DNA of 64,000 nt, taken from assembly GCA_021463195.1 (NCBI GenBank), contig JAJTXZ010000011.1, positions 1 to 64,000 of the forward strand, read 5' to 3'. The position numbers and the translations under genes are program-made. This document shows positions 35,135-42,570 of the stretch, one piece after another (the stretch's first letter is position 1; each line of letters opens with the position of its first letter). The notes beneath the pieces are model-generated. The model was not told the DNA's origin and did no database searches. It was given only the letters and a program-made list of their open reading frames with translations. Source of the stretch: Anaerolineae bacterium (GTDB lineage: Bacteria; Chloroflexota; Anaerolineae; UBA4142; SHND01).

Positions 35135-36316
35135 TTATTTTATTAGCGGAACCGTCAACAGCACGCGCGTGCCTTGCTGAGGCGCGGAAGTGATTTGCAG
35201 CGCGCCGTTGACGATGGCGGCGCGTTCGCGCATATTTAACAAGCCCAGCGAGCCGCGCGTCCCATACGTGGCTTGAATCTCGTTCACATCAAACCCGGGC
35301 CCATCATCGCGCACCGCGAGCTCCAAAATCGTTTCAGCTTCGCGCGCGTCAATCCATATATTTTTGGGCTGGGCATGTTTTTTCGCGTTGTTGACCGCCT
35401 CTTGCGCAATCGCGAAAATCGCCGCCTCTTGTTTCGGTTCAAAACGCGTCTGGCAAGTCGCCACGTCGAGATGCACCATAAACGGTTCGACCATTCGCAA
35501 ACGCAGCGCGTATTGTTCCAACGCCGGACGCAGACCTTGCTGCTCCAAAATCAATGGACGCAAATCAAATAAAATATTGCGCGTTTGGTACAATGCTTTC
35601 GACGCGATGGCTTCCAACGATAATGTTTCTTCCGCAAGACGCAAAGGGTCTTGTTTCGCCAAATCGCGCGCCAGCCGCGCCTGCATCACCAACACCGCGA
35701 GCATTTGCGCGGGGCCATCGTGCAAATCGCGCGCCAATTCATGTCGCACCGCCGCTTCGACCGCAAGAATGCGGTCGCGCTCTTGCAACAGTTCGCCATA
35801 CAAACGCGCGTTTTCCAACGCAATCGCGCTCTGCGCCGCGAACGCCATTAACAATTCGACATCTACTTTGGTATATTTTTCACCCTGCGCTTGATTCATC
35901 ACCTCCAGCACGCCGAGCGCGCGCCCTTGCGCGCTCAACGGCACCGCCAAGAGTTGATGAACCTGCAAGCCCACGCTGCTCGCCGGCGCGCGAAAATAAC
36001 GCGGGTCTGTTTCCGCGTCGTCCACCACCACCGCGCGCTGTCGCGAAAACGCTTCGCCCGCGATGCCTTGCGTCAGCGGTACGCGCGTATCTTTGAGCGC
36101 GCCCCCCCCTCCTCCGACCACAACCCGAAAGACCAGCGCGTCCGCGGCGGCATCGCGCAGCAACAGCGACCCCGCGCTGCTGCGCGTAACGCGCATCGCC
36201 GCGCGTAAAATTTTGGTGAGCAGCGCTTCATGGTCTAACTCGGCGGTCAATTCGCGCGTCACTTGCAACAACGTTTCGAGCGCCGCGACGCGCGCCGCGT
36301 CAACTGTCGGATTCAT
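35135..36316 (-). CDS. GAF-domain histidine kinase of the NarX/DesK (HisKA_3) type
   Basis: 393 aa, no TM helix, so a soluble sensor. GAF domain (about 25-170), then the HisKA_3 dimerisation motif ELARDLHDGPAQ with phospho-acceptor His199. The HATPase part follows with NNAKKHAQPK (N box), DDGPGFD (G1) and GSLGLLNMRERA. The usual partner is a LuxR-type response regulator, but none is adjacent. It is the third gene of the cyclase-patatin operon, 43 bp downstream. A run of eight C on the forward strand (36102-36109) encodes consecutive glycines in the GAF domain. Confidence 0.88.
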   Translation of the reverse strand: MNPTVDAARVAALETLLQVTRELTAELDHEALLTKILRAAMRVTRSSAGSLLLRDAAADALVFRVVVGGGGGALKDTRVPLTQGIAGEAFSRQRAVVVDDAETDPRYFRAPASSVGLQVHQLLAVPLSAQGRALGVLEVMNQAQGEKYTKVDVELLMAFAAQSAIALENARLYGELLQERDRILAVEAAVRHELARDLHDGPAQMLAVLVMQARLARDLAKQDPLRLAEETLSLEAIASKALYQTRNILFDLRPLILEQQGLRPALEQYALRLRMVEPFMVHLDVATCQTRFEPKQEAAIFAIAQEAVNNAKKHAQPKNIWIDAREAETILELAVRDDGPGFDVNEIQATYGTRGSLGLLNMRERAAIVNGALQITSAPQQGTRVLLTVPLIK

Positions 36317-36359: not shown

Positions 36360-38039
36360 CTAGGCCGCATACGATTTGACGCGCGGATGCGGCGCAAGCA
36401 GTTGATGCAGCTGCGGCGCCGCGCGCTGCGCGGCGGTGCGGCCCGCTTGGATGATTTCTTCCACCCGATCAAAATCCGTAATCGTAAAACGCGCCACTTC
36501 GGGTTGAATCATCACATCAATAGATTCGGCGCGCTGTCGGATGATTTCACTCTCCATAATTTCCAACGCGCCCGTCAAAATCGCAAACACATTTGGCGCT
36601 TTGCCGGTCTTGAGCTGCTGTTTACGATGCATCCGATCGGACAACCCAGGGATCACGCTCGACGCGACAATAATGTCCGCGCGCTTGTCTTTGAGAATCG
36701 AAGTCGGCACCGGATTCACCGTGCCGCCATCCACCAAAAAATGATCGCCAATTTTGGGCGGCTCGAAAATACCAATCATCGAAATCGAAGCGCGCACCGC
36801 GTCCGCAATCGGGCCCTGGTCAAATAGCACCTCTTCGCCCGTTATCACATCGCAGCTTACAACGGTCAACGGAATTTCAAGGTCCTCGAAATTTTTATTG
36901 CGTAAAATTTTGCGAAAATATTCGAGCGTCTTGACGCCGCGCACCAAACCTGAACGCGGCGGAATACCGACATCCCACATCGAAAAACCTTTGAACAAAT
37001 TAGTTTGACGCTGCATCAACCGCGCTACTTGGGTTATTTCATCCAATGGGACGTCGCTCGCGTACAGCGCGCCGACAATCGCACCCATCGAAGCGGTCGC
37101 CAAAATATCCACCGGAATCCGTTCCTGCTCAAACACCTCCAGCACGCCAATATGCGCCAGCCCGCGCGCGCCGCCAGAGGACAACGCCAAACCGATTTGA
37201 CGCCGCGCGATCTTGCGCGCGAGGCGCGCAATACGTTTCGGTTCCGGCTTGATAACTAGAAAATTGCGCGTGGCGGCTTGCGTCAACCAGCGTTCGGGCG
37301 TATCCGCCAGTTGAATGGTCACATCCGCCAAATCAATCGCTTTGATGGTCAACAAAGACGGACGCAGCGGTATCGCCAGAATCACCCAAAAATATTCTTG
37401 CACCAACGAGCTGAGCCGCGCGGGCAATTCGTCCGCCGTCAAATTTTGTCCGCCGCGCGCGAGCTGCACGCCGCTCAGCGAGAGCGTCGCCTGGTCCACC
37501 GGCATATTGCCCAACCCGCCCAAATCAAATAAAAAGACTTCTTCGCCCGTAATCTTTGCCACCTGTTCGGCAAGCACCGGCGCTTGCGGTCCGACGACGG
37601 CAACAATATTCAATTCCTCTTGCTGAACGGGATTTTGAATTTGGCGCGTCAAACGGCGCGACAACTCGCGGCTGAGTTCCACCGCGATACTCGGATACGT
37701 TTCAATCAACTCTTGCAATTCCTGCCGCCCGAGCGAAATCAAATCCGAATCAATCACCACGCGCACGCCCGCGTTGCGCGGTTCGCCGGTCAACAGCGCG
37801 GTCTCGCCAAAAAAGTTTCCGGGATTAAGATACGAAAAAATTCGTTCCGCGCCATTGCGCTCCGAAACGACTTTGACCTGACCCGATTGGATCACGTACA
37901 TGCGGTCGCCAAAATCGCCTTCGGCAAAGACCAGCTCGCCGCGGCTATAATGCTCGCGGCGACAATACTTTTCGATGGCGAGAATCACGTCATCGGAAAG
38001 GTCGGCAAAGAACGGAATGAGACGAAGATCGCTACGCAT
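36360..38039 (-). CDS. Patatin-like phospholipase with N-terminal cyclic-nucleotide-binding domain
   Basis: 559 aa. Residues 1-135 are a CNB domain with an intact phosphate-binding cassette (FFGETALLTGEPR; Glu79 and Arg88 would contact the cyclic phosphate). A middle region of about 130 residues follows, then a patatin domain: oxyanion motif SSGGARGLAHIG (288-299), nucleophile Ser317 in TASMGA (the first Gly of GxSxG is Thr) and catalytic Asp437 in VDGG. This is the NTE/RssA-like group of lipid hydrolases. Its start overlaps the end of the adenylate cyclase gene by 8 bp, so ligand maker and ligand-controlled lipase are likely made together. Confidence 0.88.
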   Translation of the reverse strand: MRSDLRLIPFFADLSDDVILAIEKYCRREHYSRGELVFAEGDFGDRMYVIQSGQVKVVSERNGAERIFSYLNPGNFFGETALLTGEPRNAGVRVVIDSDLISLGRQELQELIETYPSIAVELSRELSRRLTRQIQNPVQQEELNIVAVVGPQAPVLAEQVAKITGEEVFLFDLGGLGNMPVDQATLSLSGVQLARGGQNLTADELPARLSSLVQEYFWVILAIPLRPSLLTIKAIDLADVTIQLADTPERWLTQAATRNFLVIKPEPKRIARLARKIARRQIGLALSSGGARGLAHIGVLEVFEQERIPVDILATASMGAIVGALYASDVPLDEITQVARLMQRQTNLFKGFSMWDVGIPPRSGLVRGVKTLEYFRKILRNKNFEDLEIPLTVVSCDVITGEEVLFDQGPIADAVRASISMIGIFEPPKIGDHFLVDGGTVNPVPTSILKDKRADIIVASSVIPGLSDRMHRKQQLKTGKAPNVFAILTGALEIMESEIIRQRAESIDVMIQPEVARFTITDFDRVEEIIQAGRTAAQRAAPQLHQLLAPHPRVKSYAA

Positions 38040-41000
38040 TGGCAGAGGGAGGAATAAATCGCGCGCGCGCGTGTTCAGCGCGCTGCGCGTATTGGACTGC
38101 GCCTAATTGGACAAAAACCTCGCGCGCATGCGTCAACGCGACTTGGGCTTGCGCGAACAAATTATATTCCACGTACAACAACCCCAGTTCCAATTCTCCG
38201 CGCGCAGCTTCATACGGACTGGTCAACGCGTTGGATAACTCGATACTGCGCTTTAAATCTTGTTCGGCTTGAATAAAATCGCCTTGCGCGCGCGCGACGC
38301 TCCCCAATTCGCGCAGCGCGTTCGCTTCGGTTTGGCGATAGCCCGCGCTGCGCGCCAACGCCAAGGCGCGCTCTCCGGCCACGCGCGCCGCTTCCAACTT
38401 GCCGCGCTGCAATTCGACGCGCGCCAGCACGGATTGCGCTTCCGCGTGCCATTCGCGCACACCCGATTTCTCGGCGAGCGCGCTAGCTTCTGACAATAAC
38501 TGCTGCGCGGCGTCCAGTTTCCCTTCGGCGGCGTCCACTTGCGCGAGCGAACCAAGCGTCATGCAGAGCGAGCTAGGATCGCGCAATTTTTCCGCGCCCT
38601 GCCGCGCCTGATTCAAATACGCGCGCGCGTCAGCCAAAGCGTCTTTGTATAAATAATACAAGCCGAGATTGATTTGCGCCGAAACGAGATAACGCACATC
38701 GCCGATGCGCCGTTTGAGTTCCAAACTCTCTTGCAAGTGCGGCAGCGCGCGGTCCCATTCGCCGATGTTGAGCATAATCGCGCCGAGATTGGAATGCGAA
38801 CGACTCATCCCTTCCAAATCGCCGATGCGTTCGCGCACGGCAAGGCCGCGCTGCGCGTATTGAATGGCGCGCTGCCAATCGCCTTGCAAATTGGCGACAG
38901 CGGCAAGCCCGTTGTACGCCGAACCCATTTCGGCATAATAGTCCAAGCCGTCCGAAATTTCAAGCGCTTGGAGCCGCCACTGCTGCGCCGCGTCCAAATT
39001 GCCGCGCCGATAATGCACCCAACCGGTCTCGAGATAAATCCGCACTCGTTCCACCGCCTGCGCGGACGACGGGTCGCGGTCAATCTCGCGCCGCGCGATT
39101 TCCAACCAGCGCATCGCCTCATCGTACTTGCCGTGACGTTCATGCACGCGGCCGAGACGGCGCGCGACTTCGGCGGCTTGCCGCGCGCGCGCGACATTCT
39201 CGGTCAATTCCGTGACCAACACCCAAGCGCGATTCAGACTCAACGTGGCGCCTTCAAAATCGCCAACATGCGTTTGCGAATTACCCAAGCCGATAAGAAT
39301 ACGCAATCGCGTCATGACGGGAACATTCACGCGCGTTGTCATTTCCAACGCGGCGCGATAATAGCCGGACGCCTCTTCGTTCGCAAAACGCGCCGTCGCG
39401 CGCTCTGCCGCGCGAACGACATAGGGCAGCGCTTTGCCCGCGTCTTTGCTCTCGCTGTAGTGAAACGCGAGGCGTTCGGTTTGTTCTTCAAGTCGCGACG
39501 GATACAACTCTTCAATCGCTTGCGCGATTTTATAATGCAGCTGTTCGCGCCGCCGCAGCAGCACACTATTGTAAATCGTTTGCTGCGTCAGAATATGGCG
39601 AAACGCGAATTCACGTTCCGGCAGCGCGAGCGTTTGCTCCACCAATTCGTGGTCTATCAATTCTTGTAAATCATTTTCCTGGCGCGCCGGATTCGTATCC
39701 GCAATGCGCAGCAAAATGGCATCCGCGAATTCGCGCCCAATCACAGACGCGCATTGCGCCGTATAACGCGTGGATTCAGACAAATTGTCCACGCGCGTCA
39801 TGATGAGACTTTCCAAAGTGCGCGGCACTTGGAACGCGCTCAAATCCGCGTCCGGCGTCATCTCCCAACGGTCTTGGCGCCGCCGAATCAAATTACGGTC
39901 AATGAGCGTCCGTAAAATTTCTTCCAAAAAGAACGGATTGCCTTCGGCGCGCTGCGTAATCAACTTGCGCAGCGCTTCGGGCAATTCCGAAATCGTCAAC
40001 AAGAGGTCAACTAACGCGTCGCTTTCGGAGAGCGACAATGGCTCTAGCGCGAAATGGACAAAATGTTCGCCCAACGTCGCCGCGCCGACGCGTTGAACTT
40101 GCGTGGAGGCTTGGTTTTCCGAAGGGCGCGCCAGGCAGACAAATTGCAACGGCGCTTCTTCCGTCGCGCCAAACATAAAGAGCAGCAAATCGAGCGACGG
40201 TTTGTCGAGCCAATGCAAATCATCCAAAATCAAAACCAACGGACTCGTTTGCGCTTCCCGAATCATCAAATCGCGCACTGCCAAAAAAGTTTGTTGGCGC
40301 AGCTGCGCGGGTTCAAGATGCCGAATCCGTTCCGCCAAATCACGTTCGACGGTCGACAGCCCCAACAGATTTTCAATGTACGGCAAAATTTGGTACTGGA
40401 TGCGCGCGTCGGGAAACAAAGCGCGAATCCGCGCGGCGACCAGCGCATGACTTGCTTCCAGGGTATCTTCGGGGTTGATTTGGAACAGCTCGCGCAAGAG
40501 GCGCAAAATAATGCCGTACGCCGATTGGCCGTACGCGAAACATGTGCCTTCCAATACGCGCAATCGTCCGAGCGCAGGCGAACTCTTGAGCCATTGTTTC
40601 GCTTCGGCGACCAAACGCGTTTTGCCCAAACCCGCGTCTCCCGTGATGAGCAAAACGCCGCCGCGCTGCCGCGAAATTAAATTTTGCAACGCGCGTTCAA
40701 ACCGCGCCAATTCAATTTCGCGTCCGACCATCGGCGCGCTCAAGCCGGGAATCCCGCGCACGCTTCCGGGCGCGCTCTTTACGCCCAGAACTTGATAGAT
40801 TTCCACCGGCGCGGCGCGCCCTTTGACGCGAATCGAACCCAACTCGCTAAACTCGAACAGCGCGCGCGTTTGCTCGTACACCGCGCGGCTCGCCAACACC
40901 GTGCCGGGTTCAGCGACGCTTTGCAAGCGCGACGCGACATTCACAGTATCGCCCAGCGCGGTATAGTTCATTTTCAAATCCACGCCAATGTCGCCAACGA

Positions 41001-41616
41001 CCACTGTGCCTAAATTCAAACCGACGCGCATTTGCAGCGGAATGCCATATCGCGCGACCAGTTGACCGCTAATTGTTTCAAGCGCGGCTTGCATGTCCAA
41101 CGCGCAGCGCACCGCGCGCGCGGGGTCATCTTCGTGCATCAAGGGCGCTCCAAATAACGCCATGACGCCGTCGCCCATGAATTTATCCAACGTTCCCTCA
41201 TGCGCGTAAATCGCCTCGCGGAATGCCGCCACCGATTCTTCAATCACGTTATACACCGCTTCCGGGTCCAACTTTTCCGAAATCGTGGTAAAGCCCACCA
41301 CATCGGAAAACAAAACTGTCACCGTGCGACGCTCGCCTTCGATTTGTTTGCTCGCCGTGATAATTTTGTCAACCAACTGACCGGGGATAAAGCCACGTAA
41401 ACGCCGCAGCTGTTCCGAATCGGAGGGACGCGCCAGTCCCGCCGTCAACAAGTTTGAACCGCAGTTGCCGCAAAACTTGAAACCGCGCGGATTTTCAAAA
41501 CCGCAATTCGAGCAGAGATTCGCGAGCGGTGTCGCGCAGTTGGCGCAAACCGCAACGCCCGGAGAATTATCATGTCCGCATTGCGGACACGGAATGGAAT
41601 TTAGAGGCGGTCGCAT
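38032..41616 (-). CDS. Class III adenylate cyclase with zinc ribbons, AAA ATPase and TPR region
   Basis: 1194 aa. Order: double zinc ribbon (CPQCG...CANC, CSNCG...CGNCG; 10-52), cyclase homology domain (about 95-280), AAA/STAND ATPase (Walker A GDAGLGKT 326-333, Walker B VLILDD), winged helix, then about 500 residues of TPRs. The cyclase keeps both metal aspartates (Asp105 in LFSDVVGFT, Asp149 in KFMGDG), the adenine-selecting pair Lys145 and Asp223, and the transition-state Asn/Arg in NVASR. The product should therefore be cAMP, not a pyrimidine cNMP. Partner binding at the TPRs probably gates the ATPase and cyclase. The overlapping downstream gene is a cNMP-binding patatin. Confidence 0.93.
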   Translation of the reverse strand: MRPPLNSIPCPQCGHDNSPGVAVCANCATPLANLCSNCGFENPRGFKFCGNCGSNLLTAGLARPSDSEQLRRLRGFIPGQLVDKIITASKQIEGERRTVTVLFSDVVGFTTISEKLDPEAVYNVIEESVAAFREAIYAHEGTLDKFMGDGVMALFGAPLMHEDDPARAVRCALDMQAALETISGQLVARYGIPLQMRVGLNLGTVVVGDIGVDLKMNYTALGDTVNVASRLQSVAEPGTVLASRAVYEQTRALFEFSELGSIRVKGRAAPVEIYQVLGVKSAPGSVRGIPGLSAPMVGREIELARFERALQNLISRQRGGVLLITGDAGLGKTRLVAEAKQWLKSSPALGRLRVLEGTCFAYGQSAYGIILRLLRELFQINPEDTLEASHALVAARIRALFPDARIQYQILPYIENLLGLSTVERDLAERIRHLEPAQLRQQTFLAVRDLMIREAQTSPLVLILDDLHWLDKPSLDLLLFMFGATEEAPLQFVCLARPSENQASTQVQRVGAATLGEHFVHFALEPLSLSESDALVDLLLTISELPEALRKLITQRAEGNPFFLEEILRTLIDRNLIRRRQDRWEMTPDADLSAFQVPRTLESLIMTRVDNLSESTRYTAQCASVIGREFADAILLRIADTNPARQENDLQELIDHELVEQTLALPEREFAFRHILTQQTIYNSVLLRRREQLHYKIAQAIEELYPSRLEEQTERLAFHYSESKDAGKALPYVVRAAERATARFANEEASGYYRAALEMTTRVNVPVMTRLRILIGLGNSQTHVGDFEGATLSLNRAWVLVTELTENVARARQAAEVARRLGRVHERHGKYDEAMRWLEIARREIDRDPSSAQAVERVRIYLETGWVHYRRGNLDAAQQWRLQALEISDGLDYYAEMGSAYNGLAAVANLQGDWQRAIQYAQRGLAVRERIGDLEGMSRSHSNLGAIMLNIGEWDRALPHLQESLELKRRIGDVRYLVSAQINLGLYYLYKDALADARAYLNQARQGAEKLRDPSSLCMTLGSLAQVDAAEGKLDAAQQLLSEASALAEKSGVREWHAEAQSVLARVELQRGKLEAARVAGERALALARSAGYRQTEANALRELGSVARAQGDFIQAEQDLKRSIELSNALTSPYEAARGELELGLLYVEYNLFAQAQVALTHAREVFVQLGAVQYAQRAEHARARFIPPSANA

Positions 41617-41657: not shown

Positions 41658-41686
41658 ATTATAGCGAGAGTGCCATTTTCAGACAA
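41658..41686 (-). promoter_or_regulatory. Promoter of the cyclase-patatin-kinase operon
   Basis: Reverse strand: TTGTCT (41681-41686), 17 bp, TATAAT (41658-41663), 41 bp before the cyclase ATG. The -35 lies 7 bp from the edge of the MITE-like element at 41694. Confidence 0.65.
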
Positions 41687-41952: not shown

Positions 41953-42348
41953 CTATTTCACGAAATAGAAAACTCTTGCCACACCCGCGTTGTTGGATTT
42001 GTCCCACTTGACTTTGCCGTCAAAAGTGAATTTGACAAACGTTTTAGGGGCTGTCTCGACGCGCACTTGCATCAGATTCTTCAACCCGCCCACTGAAACT
42101 TGCGCCGGATCTACCACCGGCAGCGTCGGGTCGCCGCCGCAATTGACGACATTGTAATCCACTGTCACATTCCAACCGACTTTGACAAATACATCAATCG
42201 GCGCATCAGTGGGATCCACTCGCAGCAACTTGCCGTTGACACACAATTGCGGATCATCAAACACGGGGCCAGCAGAAACGGGCGCTGCCCATGAAGCTAA
42301 ACTCAGAAAAAACGCGCCGACGACGAGCATGAATACCAGGGTTCGCAT
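41953..42348 (-). CDS. Secreted protein of unknown function
   Basis: 131 aa from Met at 42348 (MRTLVFMLVVGAFFLSLASW); the longer frame lacks sense upstream. A signal peptide of about 26 residues ends near APVSAGP. The mature domain is short and beta-rich, with two Cys (LCVNGKLL, VNCGGDP) that could form a disulphide. I do not recognise the family. It has its own terminator. Confidence 0.65.
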   Translation of the reverse strand: MRTLVFMLVVGAFFLSLASWAAPVSAGPVFDDPQLCVNGKLLRVDPTDAPIDVFVKVGWNVTVDYNVVNCGGDPTLPVVDPAQVSVGGLKNLMQVRVETAPKTFVKFTFDGKVKWDKSNNAGVARVFYFVK

Positions 42349-42392
42349 GTGTACCTCAATATATTCTCTCGCGGGGCCGGCGCCAAGAGTCC

Positions 42393-42463
42393 AGTTGGAA
42401 TTTTTCCAACTCATTTTAAATTGAGATATGACGCCGCACAATAGGAACGCTTTCCTATTTATA
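42393..42463 (-). promoter_or_regulatory. Candidate promoter/operator region of the secreted protein
   Basis: Two inverted repeats, AGTTGGAA/TTCCAACT (42393-42411) and ATAGGAA-N4-TTCCTAT (42441-42458), next to a reverse-strand -10-like TATAAA (42458-42463). Function is inferred only from position. Confidence 0.35.
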
Positions 42464-42570
42464 ACAACAGCAAGTCGTATCGAACGCGCAAGCATGTTTC
42501 GCGCGGCGCAGCCGCGAATTCGCTTTGCCTGTCAATAGCTTGGCCGTTGCGCCAGCCCGCGCGCGCGACG

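Follow-up and report, generated by a model that had tools for sequence, protein, structure and literature searches.

The window, a 64,000-nucleotide stretch of contig JAJTXZ010000011.1 from the 4.7-Mb, 143-contig genome of an Anaerolineae bacterium, carries on its minus strand three neighbouring genes that encode a class III nucleotide cyclase, a patatin-like phospholipase with a cyclic-nucleotide-binding (cNMP) domain and a GAF histidine kinase. The genes and their features are as follows:

38032-41616, minus strand: class III nucleotide cyclase, 1194 aa (open reading frame with Pfam, NCBIfam and PDB matches)
40789-41328, minus strand: class III catalytic domain of the cyclase, residues 97-276 (Pfam Guanylate_cyc, 106 bits; a genome search gave the same span)
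40141-40731, minus strand: AAA_16 ATPase domain of the cyclase, STAND/MalT-like, residues 296-492 (Pfam; Walker A GDAGLGKT and Walker B LILDDLHW, motifs conserved)
36360-38039, minus strand: cNMP-binding patatin-like phospholipase, 559 aa (open reading frame, Pfam cNMP_binding and Patatin, alignment)
37695-37955, minus strand: cNMP-binding domain of the lipase, residues 29-115, with the phosphate-binding cassette GE(79)...R(88)NA (Pfam, alignment)
36693-37190, minus strand: patatin catalytic domain of the lipase, residues 284-449, dyad Ser317/Asp437 (Pfam, alignment)
35135-36316, minus strand: GAF-HisKA_3-HATPase_c histidine kinase, 393 aa (open reading frame, Pfam)
38032-38039, minus strand: 8-bp overlap of the cyclase stop and the lipase start, ATGCGTAG (read from the sequence)
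36343-36327, minus strand: terminator-like hairpin with T8 in the gap between lipase and kinase (consensus scan)
41658-41686, minus strand: sigma-70-like promoter TTGTCT-17-TATAAT, 41 bp ahead of the cyclase start (consensus match only)

The first-pass annotation of this DNA had placed the cyclase and patatin reading frames, and their 8-bp overlap, correctly. The overlap is peculiar to the window genome; the spacing between cyclase and lipase in relatives ranges from -4 to about 110 bp, with one case of 261 bp. The same annotation held that the kinase completes the operon. The adjacency holds in all 19 genomes of the order described below, but a single operon does not necessarily follow, as the terminator-like hairpin lies between the lipase and the kinase. 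Hairpins with T-runs occupy the same position in the two nearest relatives (L039:6571-6640 and L040:5676-5790), with different sequences, and are absent from this gap in three other members of the genus. The fold energy of the window hairpin does not exceed that of shuffles of its GC-rich sequence, so that the terminator reading is suggestive only. The kinase may therefore be transcribed separately, or at a reduced level, in the window genome.

The cyclase comprises a double zinc ribbon (Pfam DZR, residues 10-53), the catalytic domain, the AAA_16 domain and tetratricopeptide repeats (TPRs) that extend to about residue 1166, in agreement with the STAND-like ATPase and TPRs reported from the first reading. 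The metal-binding residues Asp105 and Asp149, the adenine-specifying pair Lys145/Asp223 and the transition-state residues Asn226 and Arg230 are invariant in the 17 of 17 alignment rows that hold the domain, which bears out the earlier assignment of a complete catalytic site with an ATP-type Lys/Asp pair and gives the full residue set of a class III adenylyl cyclase. The Walker A lysine, Lys332, is likewise present and conserved, and sequence comparison with solved structures places the protein nearest to class III adenylyl cyclases. The enzyme is therefore predicted to be of the ATP type, producing cAMP. Its arrangement of catalytic domain, AAA_16 and TPRs is common across the class; inspection of the genes beside the related cyclases of this layout fetched from other genomes revealed no homologue of the lipase's domains, and the pairing is therefore not a general property of the layout. 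The window genome itself contains 14 class III cyclase domains, many of them on large proteins (L180-L192), which means that cAMP need not be private to the cyclase–lipase pair. The remaining 13 cyclase genes all lack a directly adjacent cNMP-domain gene; at three of them (L180, L181 and L189), a cNMP-domain gene lies a few genes away.

The lipase consists of one cNMP-binding domain, a middle region and the patatin domain. In the alignment of 50 lipases, no variation is seen at Gly78, Glu79, Ala90, Gly289, Ser317 or Asp437; Arg88 is conserved in 45 of the 50 (45/45 outside the clade of tandem twins described below). The residues Glu79 and Arg88, singled out and numbered correctly at first reading, thus form the Gly-Glu plus Arg cassette of CRP/PKA-type cAMP-binding domains, and the catalytic half has the Ser/Asp dyad and glycine-rich oxyanion motif of patatin-like phospholipases. 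At the first glycine position of the GXSXG motif, the window lipase has Thr315; some members of the genus have Ala there, and most relatives Gly. The middle region gives only sub-threshold matches to CBP_BcsQ (P-loop), in 13 of 23 members. By sequence, the closest solved structures are PlpD and cNMP domains of the PKG/PKA/CRP type. An AlphaFold model of the lipase (pLDDT 76) superimposes on PlpD over the patatin part with a TM score of 0.88, normalized by the target, and its N terminus matches CRP; the modelled patatin fold also resembles those of CapE and CapV. Confidence is low at residues 80-86 and 127-141, the cassette and the end of the C-helix, which makes the model unreliable for the geometry of the pocket. 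In a manual alignment anchored on the RRL motif, the counterparts of the CRP adenine contacts T127/S128 are Q133/I134, positions that vary among relatives. For this reason the bound base is not readable from the sequence, and a prediction from the CRP C-helix positions was dropped. Other families of cyclic-nucleotide-binding domains use base contacts that differ from those of CRP.

Conservation of the pair in other genomes, proposed with the first reading as a check, was assessed in the 19 genomes of the window's order that encode a full-length lipase (two families and 12 genera, window genome included). The cyclase lies directly upstream of the lipase in 18 of these, and the GAF kinase directly downstream of the lipase or lipases in all 19. 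The neighbouring dnaJ, WD40, GSDH and p44645 genes, common within the window's genus, were not found at the loci of family f2, indicating that the three genes stay together as the genes around them change. The survey also covered 25 lipase loci from outside the order. At 14 of these (families f13, f14, f17 and f45, in which the lipase has no linked cyclase), the gene after the lipase encodes a homologous GAF kinase; in f51 and at several f35 loci, that place is taken by a response-regulator/kinase pair. The cyclase gene lies ahead of the lipase in f51 (L064) and in a single f35 genome (L069). The more widespread partner of the lipase is thus the histidine kinase, not the cyclase. Chance adjacency of cyclase and lipase is ruled out by the linkage within the order together with its recurrence in two other families, and the locus has what defines a linked pair of cyclase and cNMP enzyme: adjacent genes, an intact cyclase and an intact cassette on the enzyme.

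The lipase tree requires eight changes of family label, which is the minimum possible; it matches the families, which argues against recent horizontal transfer of the module. The module is vertically inherited and near universal in one order. The cyclase tree follows the families with a single exception, the unlinked cyclase of genome G030, which groups with the window's genus. In G030 the cyclase and a small secreted neighbour lie at one place and the lipase and kinase at another (L058), showing that two modules have been joined or separated at least once. In genome G015, which retains the kinase and two intact lipases, the cyclase and its upstream neighbour are missing (L056:1441-1560), and ~40 bp separate the mutM stop from the start of the lipase gene. 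No cyclase orthologue was found elsewhere in this 87%-complete, fragmented assembly. G015 is a probable case of natural cyclase loss, with the fragmentation of its assembly to be borne in mind.

Two lipases in tandem occur in six genomes, all of one family. The second copies (L045:7213-8871, L047:7339-8994, L048:5393-7066, L054:8056-9708, L055:10062-11714 and L056:3227-4879; cassette FFGEGAALFGG-x-HSAS) have His at the position of Arg88 in 6/6, with an intact catalytic dyad. In the Xanthomonas campestris enzyme XC_0249, His98 of the cNMP domain contributes to cGMP binding (PMC3770947), so that His at position 88 of the twin need not mean that binding has been lost. The natural Arg-to-His twin provides a built-in comparison for nucleotide gating.

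XC_0250/XC_0249 is also a precedent for the gene pair, in that a class III cyclase gene is linked to a gene for a cNMP-domain enzyme whose activity is changed by the nucleotide, there cGMP with a GGDEF output (PMC3770947). By contrast, the window pair has a cyclase of the Lys/Asp ATP type, an AAA/TPR arm and a patatin output, and its gating would be by analogy. The placement of a cNMP-binding domain N-terminal to a patatin domain is that of NTE/PNPLA6-type lipases and of mycobacterial Rv2565. We know of no complete class III cyclase, AAA/TPR arm included, that is encoded in close linkage to an NTE-type lipase or to Rv2565. Rv2565, assigned to Pfam PF00027, is predicted to associate with the cyclase-like gene Rv2561 (PMC4886424). 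In human NTE, three cNMP domains accompany a transmembrane segment (PMC9319352), whereas the window lipase has one cNMP domain and no transmembrane segment was noticed in it. For the human protein, evidence that cAMP binds is reported to be lacking, and cAMP is reported to leave the esterase activity unchanged in vitro (PMC9319352); a review describes a dependence of NTE abundance and activity on cAMP in cells (PMC9025805). The architecture of the cyclase, in which a STAND-type ATPase and TPRs come after the catalytic domain, is shared with ADCY10-like cyclases and with the TOMM kinase/cyclase family TIGR03903. The latter model aligns over about 1000 residues at 246.6 bits, against a cut-off of 705.75; the window cyclase lacks the kinase domain of that family and has one catalytic domain where ADCY10 has two. 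A search confined to the open literature returned no described locus of cyclase, cNMP-patatin and kinase, and no measured function for any member of the module.

Deep linkage, together with invariant residues in the active sites and the phosphate cassette, supports the hypothesis that a sensor-type cyclase is coupled to a nucleotide-binding lipase. We lean towards the view that the locus is a vertically inherited signalling module for membrane-lipid homeostasis, in which an NTE-like phospholipase would be tuned by cAMP from its own sensor cyclase. In the scheme that we infer, from product and ligand to gating and biological output, on the basis of the intact parts and long-conserved gene order that are observed, detection of a cue or partner by the AAA/TPR arm would release the cyclase, which would then convert ATP to cAMP. 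Binding of the nucleotide to the cNMP domain would change phospholipase or lysophospholipase activity at the inner membrane, and the GAF kinase may read a related stress and act through an unlinked response regulator. Counted in favour of this view are the 18/19 and 19/19 linkage, the recurrence in f51 and f35, the invariant residues and the mostly short gaps, as well as the lipase–kinase neighbours in f13, f14, f17 and f45, the regulator–kinase pairs in f35 and f51, the 13 other cyclases without an adjacent cNMP gene and the XC_0250/XC_0249 precedent. Counted against it are the cyclase loss in G015, the unlinking in G030, the 14 cyclase domains, the unconserved CRP adenine contacts and the findings on human NTE (PMC9319352). 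A more specific version, which is put forward tentatively as a possibility, is that an NTE-type bacterial lipase and its own cyclase form a dedicated circuit in which cyclic nucleotide gates the phospholipase; the tandem His88 twin that evolved in one family would then separate nucleotide-controlled activity from activity that is nucleotide independent or differently liganded. Published accounts differ on whether the cNMP domains of NTE-type phospholipases, a group that includes some proteins mutated in human neurodegenerative disease, bind cyclic nucleotides and thereby control the lipase. With just one cNMP domain, which is intact, and a cyclase fixed in place next to it, the bacterial homologue would offer a direct test of gating. 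If true, the homeostasis reading would supply a concrete locus in Chloroflexota for second-messenger control of membrane lipid turnover.

Alternatively, the genes might merely be co-expressed, sharing a promoter and a physiological occasion and no private signal. In that case the cNMP domain of the lipase would respond to the cAMP pool of the whole cell, to some other ligand or to nothing, and the cyclase would be one of many contributors. The abundance of cyclase domains in the window genome would fit this arrangement, as would the persistence of the lipase without a cyclase in G015 and without a linked one in four families, the conserved and catalytically intact His88 twin (6/6), and the reported lack of evidence for cAMP binding by NTE cNMP domains (PMC9319352). 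We consider it unlikely, given a gene order that is fixed across 18 genomes and recurs in two other families, the lack of an adjacent cNMP gene at any other cyclase of the window genome, and the retention of Glu79 in 50/50 lipases and of Arg88 in 45/45 outside the twin clade. The breadth of the lipase–kinase linkage, with a GAF kinase at 14/25 loci outside the order and more with regulator–kinase pairs, raises a different prospect, namely that the lipase and the kinase (or regulator–kinase pair) are the true partners, the kinase controlling the lipase or receiving its lipid signal, and the cyclase being a late, lineage-specific addition with a separate role. G015, which lost the cyclase and kept the lipase and kinase, points the same way. 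This arrangement seems improbable to us, as the cyclase adjoins the lipase in f51 and f35 alongside a different type of kinase, terminator-like elements lie between the lipase and kinase genes both in the window and in the two relatives nearest to it, and the cNMP cassette is strongly constrained.

The first-pass annotation had seen in the locus the logic of cyclic-nucleotide defence, and an abortive-infection system can be envisaged in which phage detection by the STAND-like arm leads the cyclase to fill the cell with cyclic nucleotide, whereupon the lipase breaks down the membrane, as with CBASS CapV or Pycsar. The logic and domain classes do resemble those systems. Like Pycsar, the locus joins a class III cyclase fold to a receptor with a cNMP-binding domain, and the best PADLOC match of the cyclase is a PycC model (109 bits); like CBASS CapV and CapE, which are nucleotide-activated, it has a patatin lipase as its output, with the similarity of fold noted above. 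Effector type, predicted substrate, distribution and genomic context all differ from Pycsar. The Pycsar systems described in the literature pair pyrimidine cyclases with PycTM or PycTIR effectors, and their UTP/CTP determinants are Y50/D94/R97 in BcPycC and F100/R142/Q144 in EaPycC (PMC11224242). These determinants are not found in the window cyclase, in which the positions -4 and -2 from the second metal Asp are K145/M147, compared with R/Q in EaPycC and -/K104 in AnPycC, and the effector is a patatin, neither PycTIR nor PycTM. CBASS uses a CD-NTase and cyclic oligonucleotides, whereas the window has a class III synthase and a CRP-type cNMP domain, and no CD-NTase was detected among the proteins and neighbours scanned. 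PADLOC matches to the cyclase, lipase and kinase rest on generic shared cyclase, cNMP and patatin domains, and among ten neighbours (proximity to defence islands having been proposed as a check with the first reading) there was no convincing defence gene, the two matches being to a generic methyltransferase (PrmA) and a glycosidase. Defence genes are typically patchy in distribution. The distribution of this module in the order is that of a core trait, which counts against defence, as does the retention of the lipase after cyclase loss in G015. With vertical inheritance, ordinary neighbours, generic matches and a cyclase of predicted ATP type, defence is set aside as the main reading and is very improbable.

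Some further observations concern the kinase and the flanking genes. No response regulator gene lies beside the GAF histidine kinase at the window locus. The NK..F..D-type motif, considered as a possible mark of a cNMP-binding GAF domain in the kinase, varies among members, being NQ..Y in the window and degraded in f45. Just upstream of the cyclase, at 41953-42495 on the minus strand, lies a gene for a small secreted protein with the motif D/E-x-P-x-LCV-x-G, to which no Pfam family was matched. It occupies this position in both families of the order and also adjoins the unlinked G030 cyclase (L042:14013, L045:14651, L047:14734, L053:13360, L054:15392, L055:4277 and L162:9823); the protein may belong to the sensing side of the cyclase. 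In f45 and f14, the lipase or lipase–kinase pair is followed by a gene for a small multi-pass membrane protein (..LGHxxGDFVLQPYWLVLAKR..), located at L068:9258-10022, L071:9068-9829, L072:4832-5608, L074:8593-9354, L076:7971-8744, L078:3890-4663 and L057:5668-6453.
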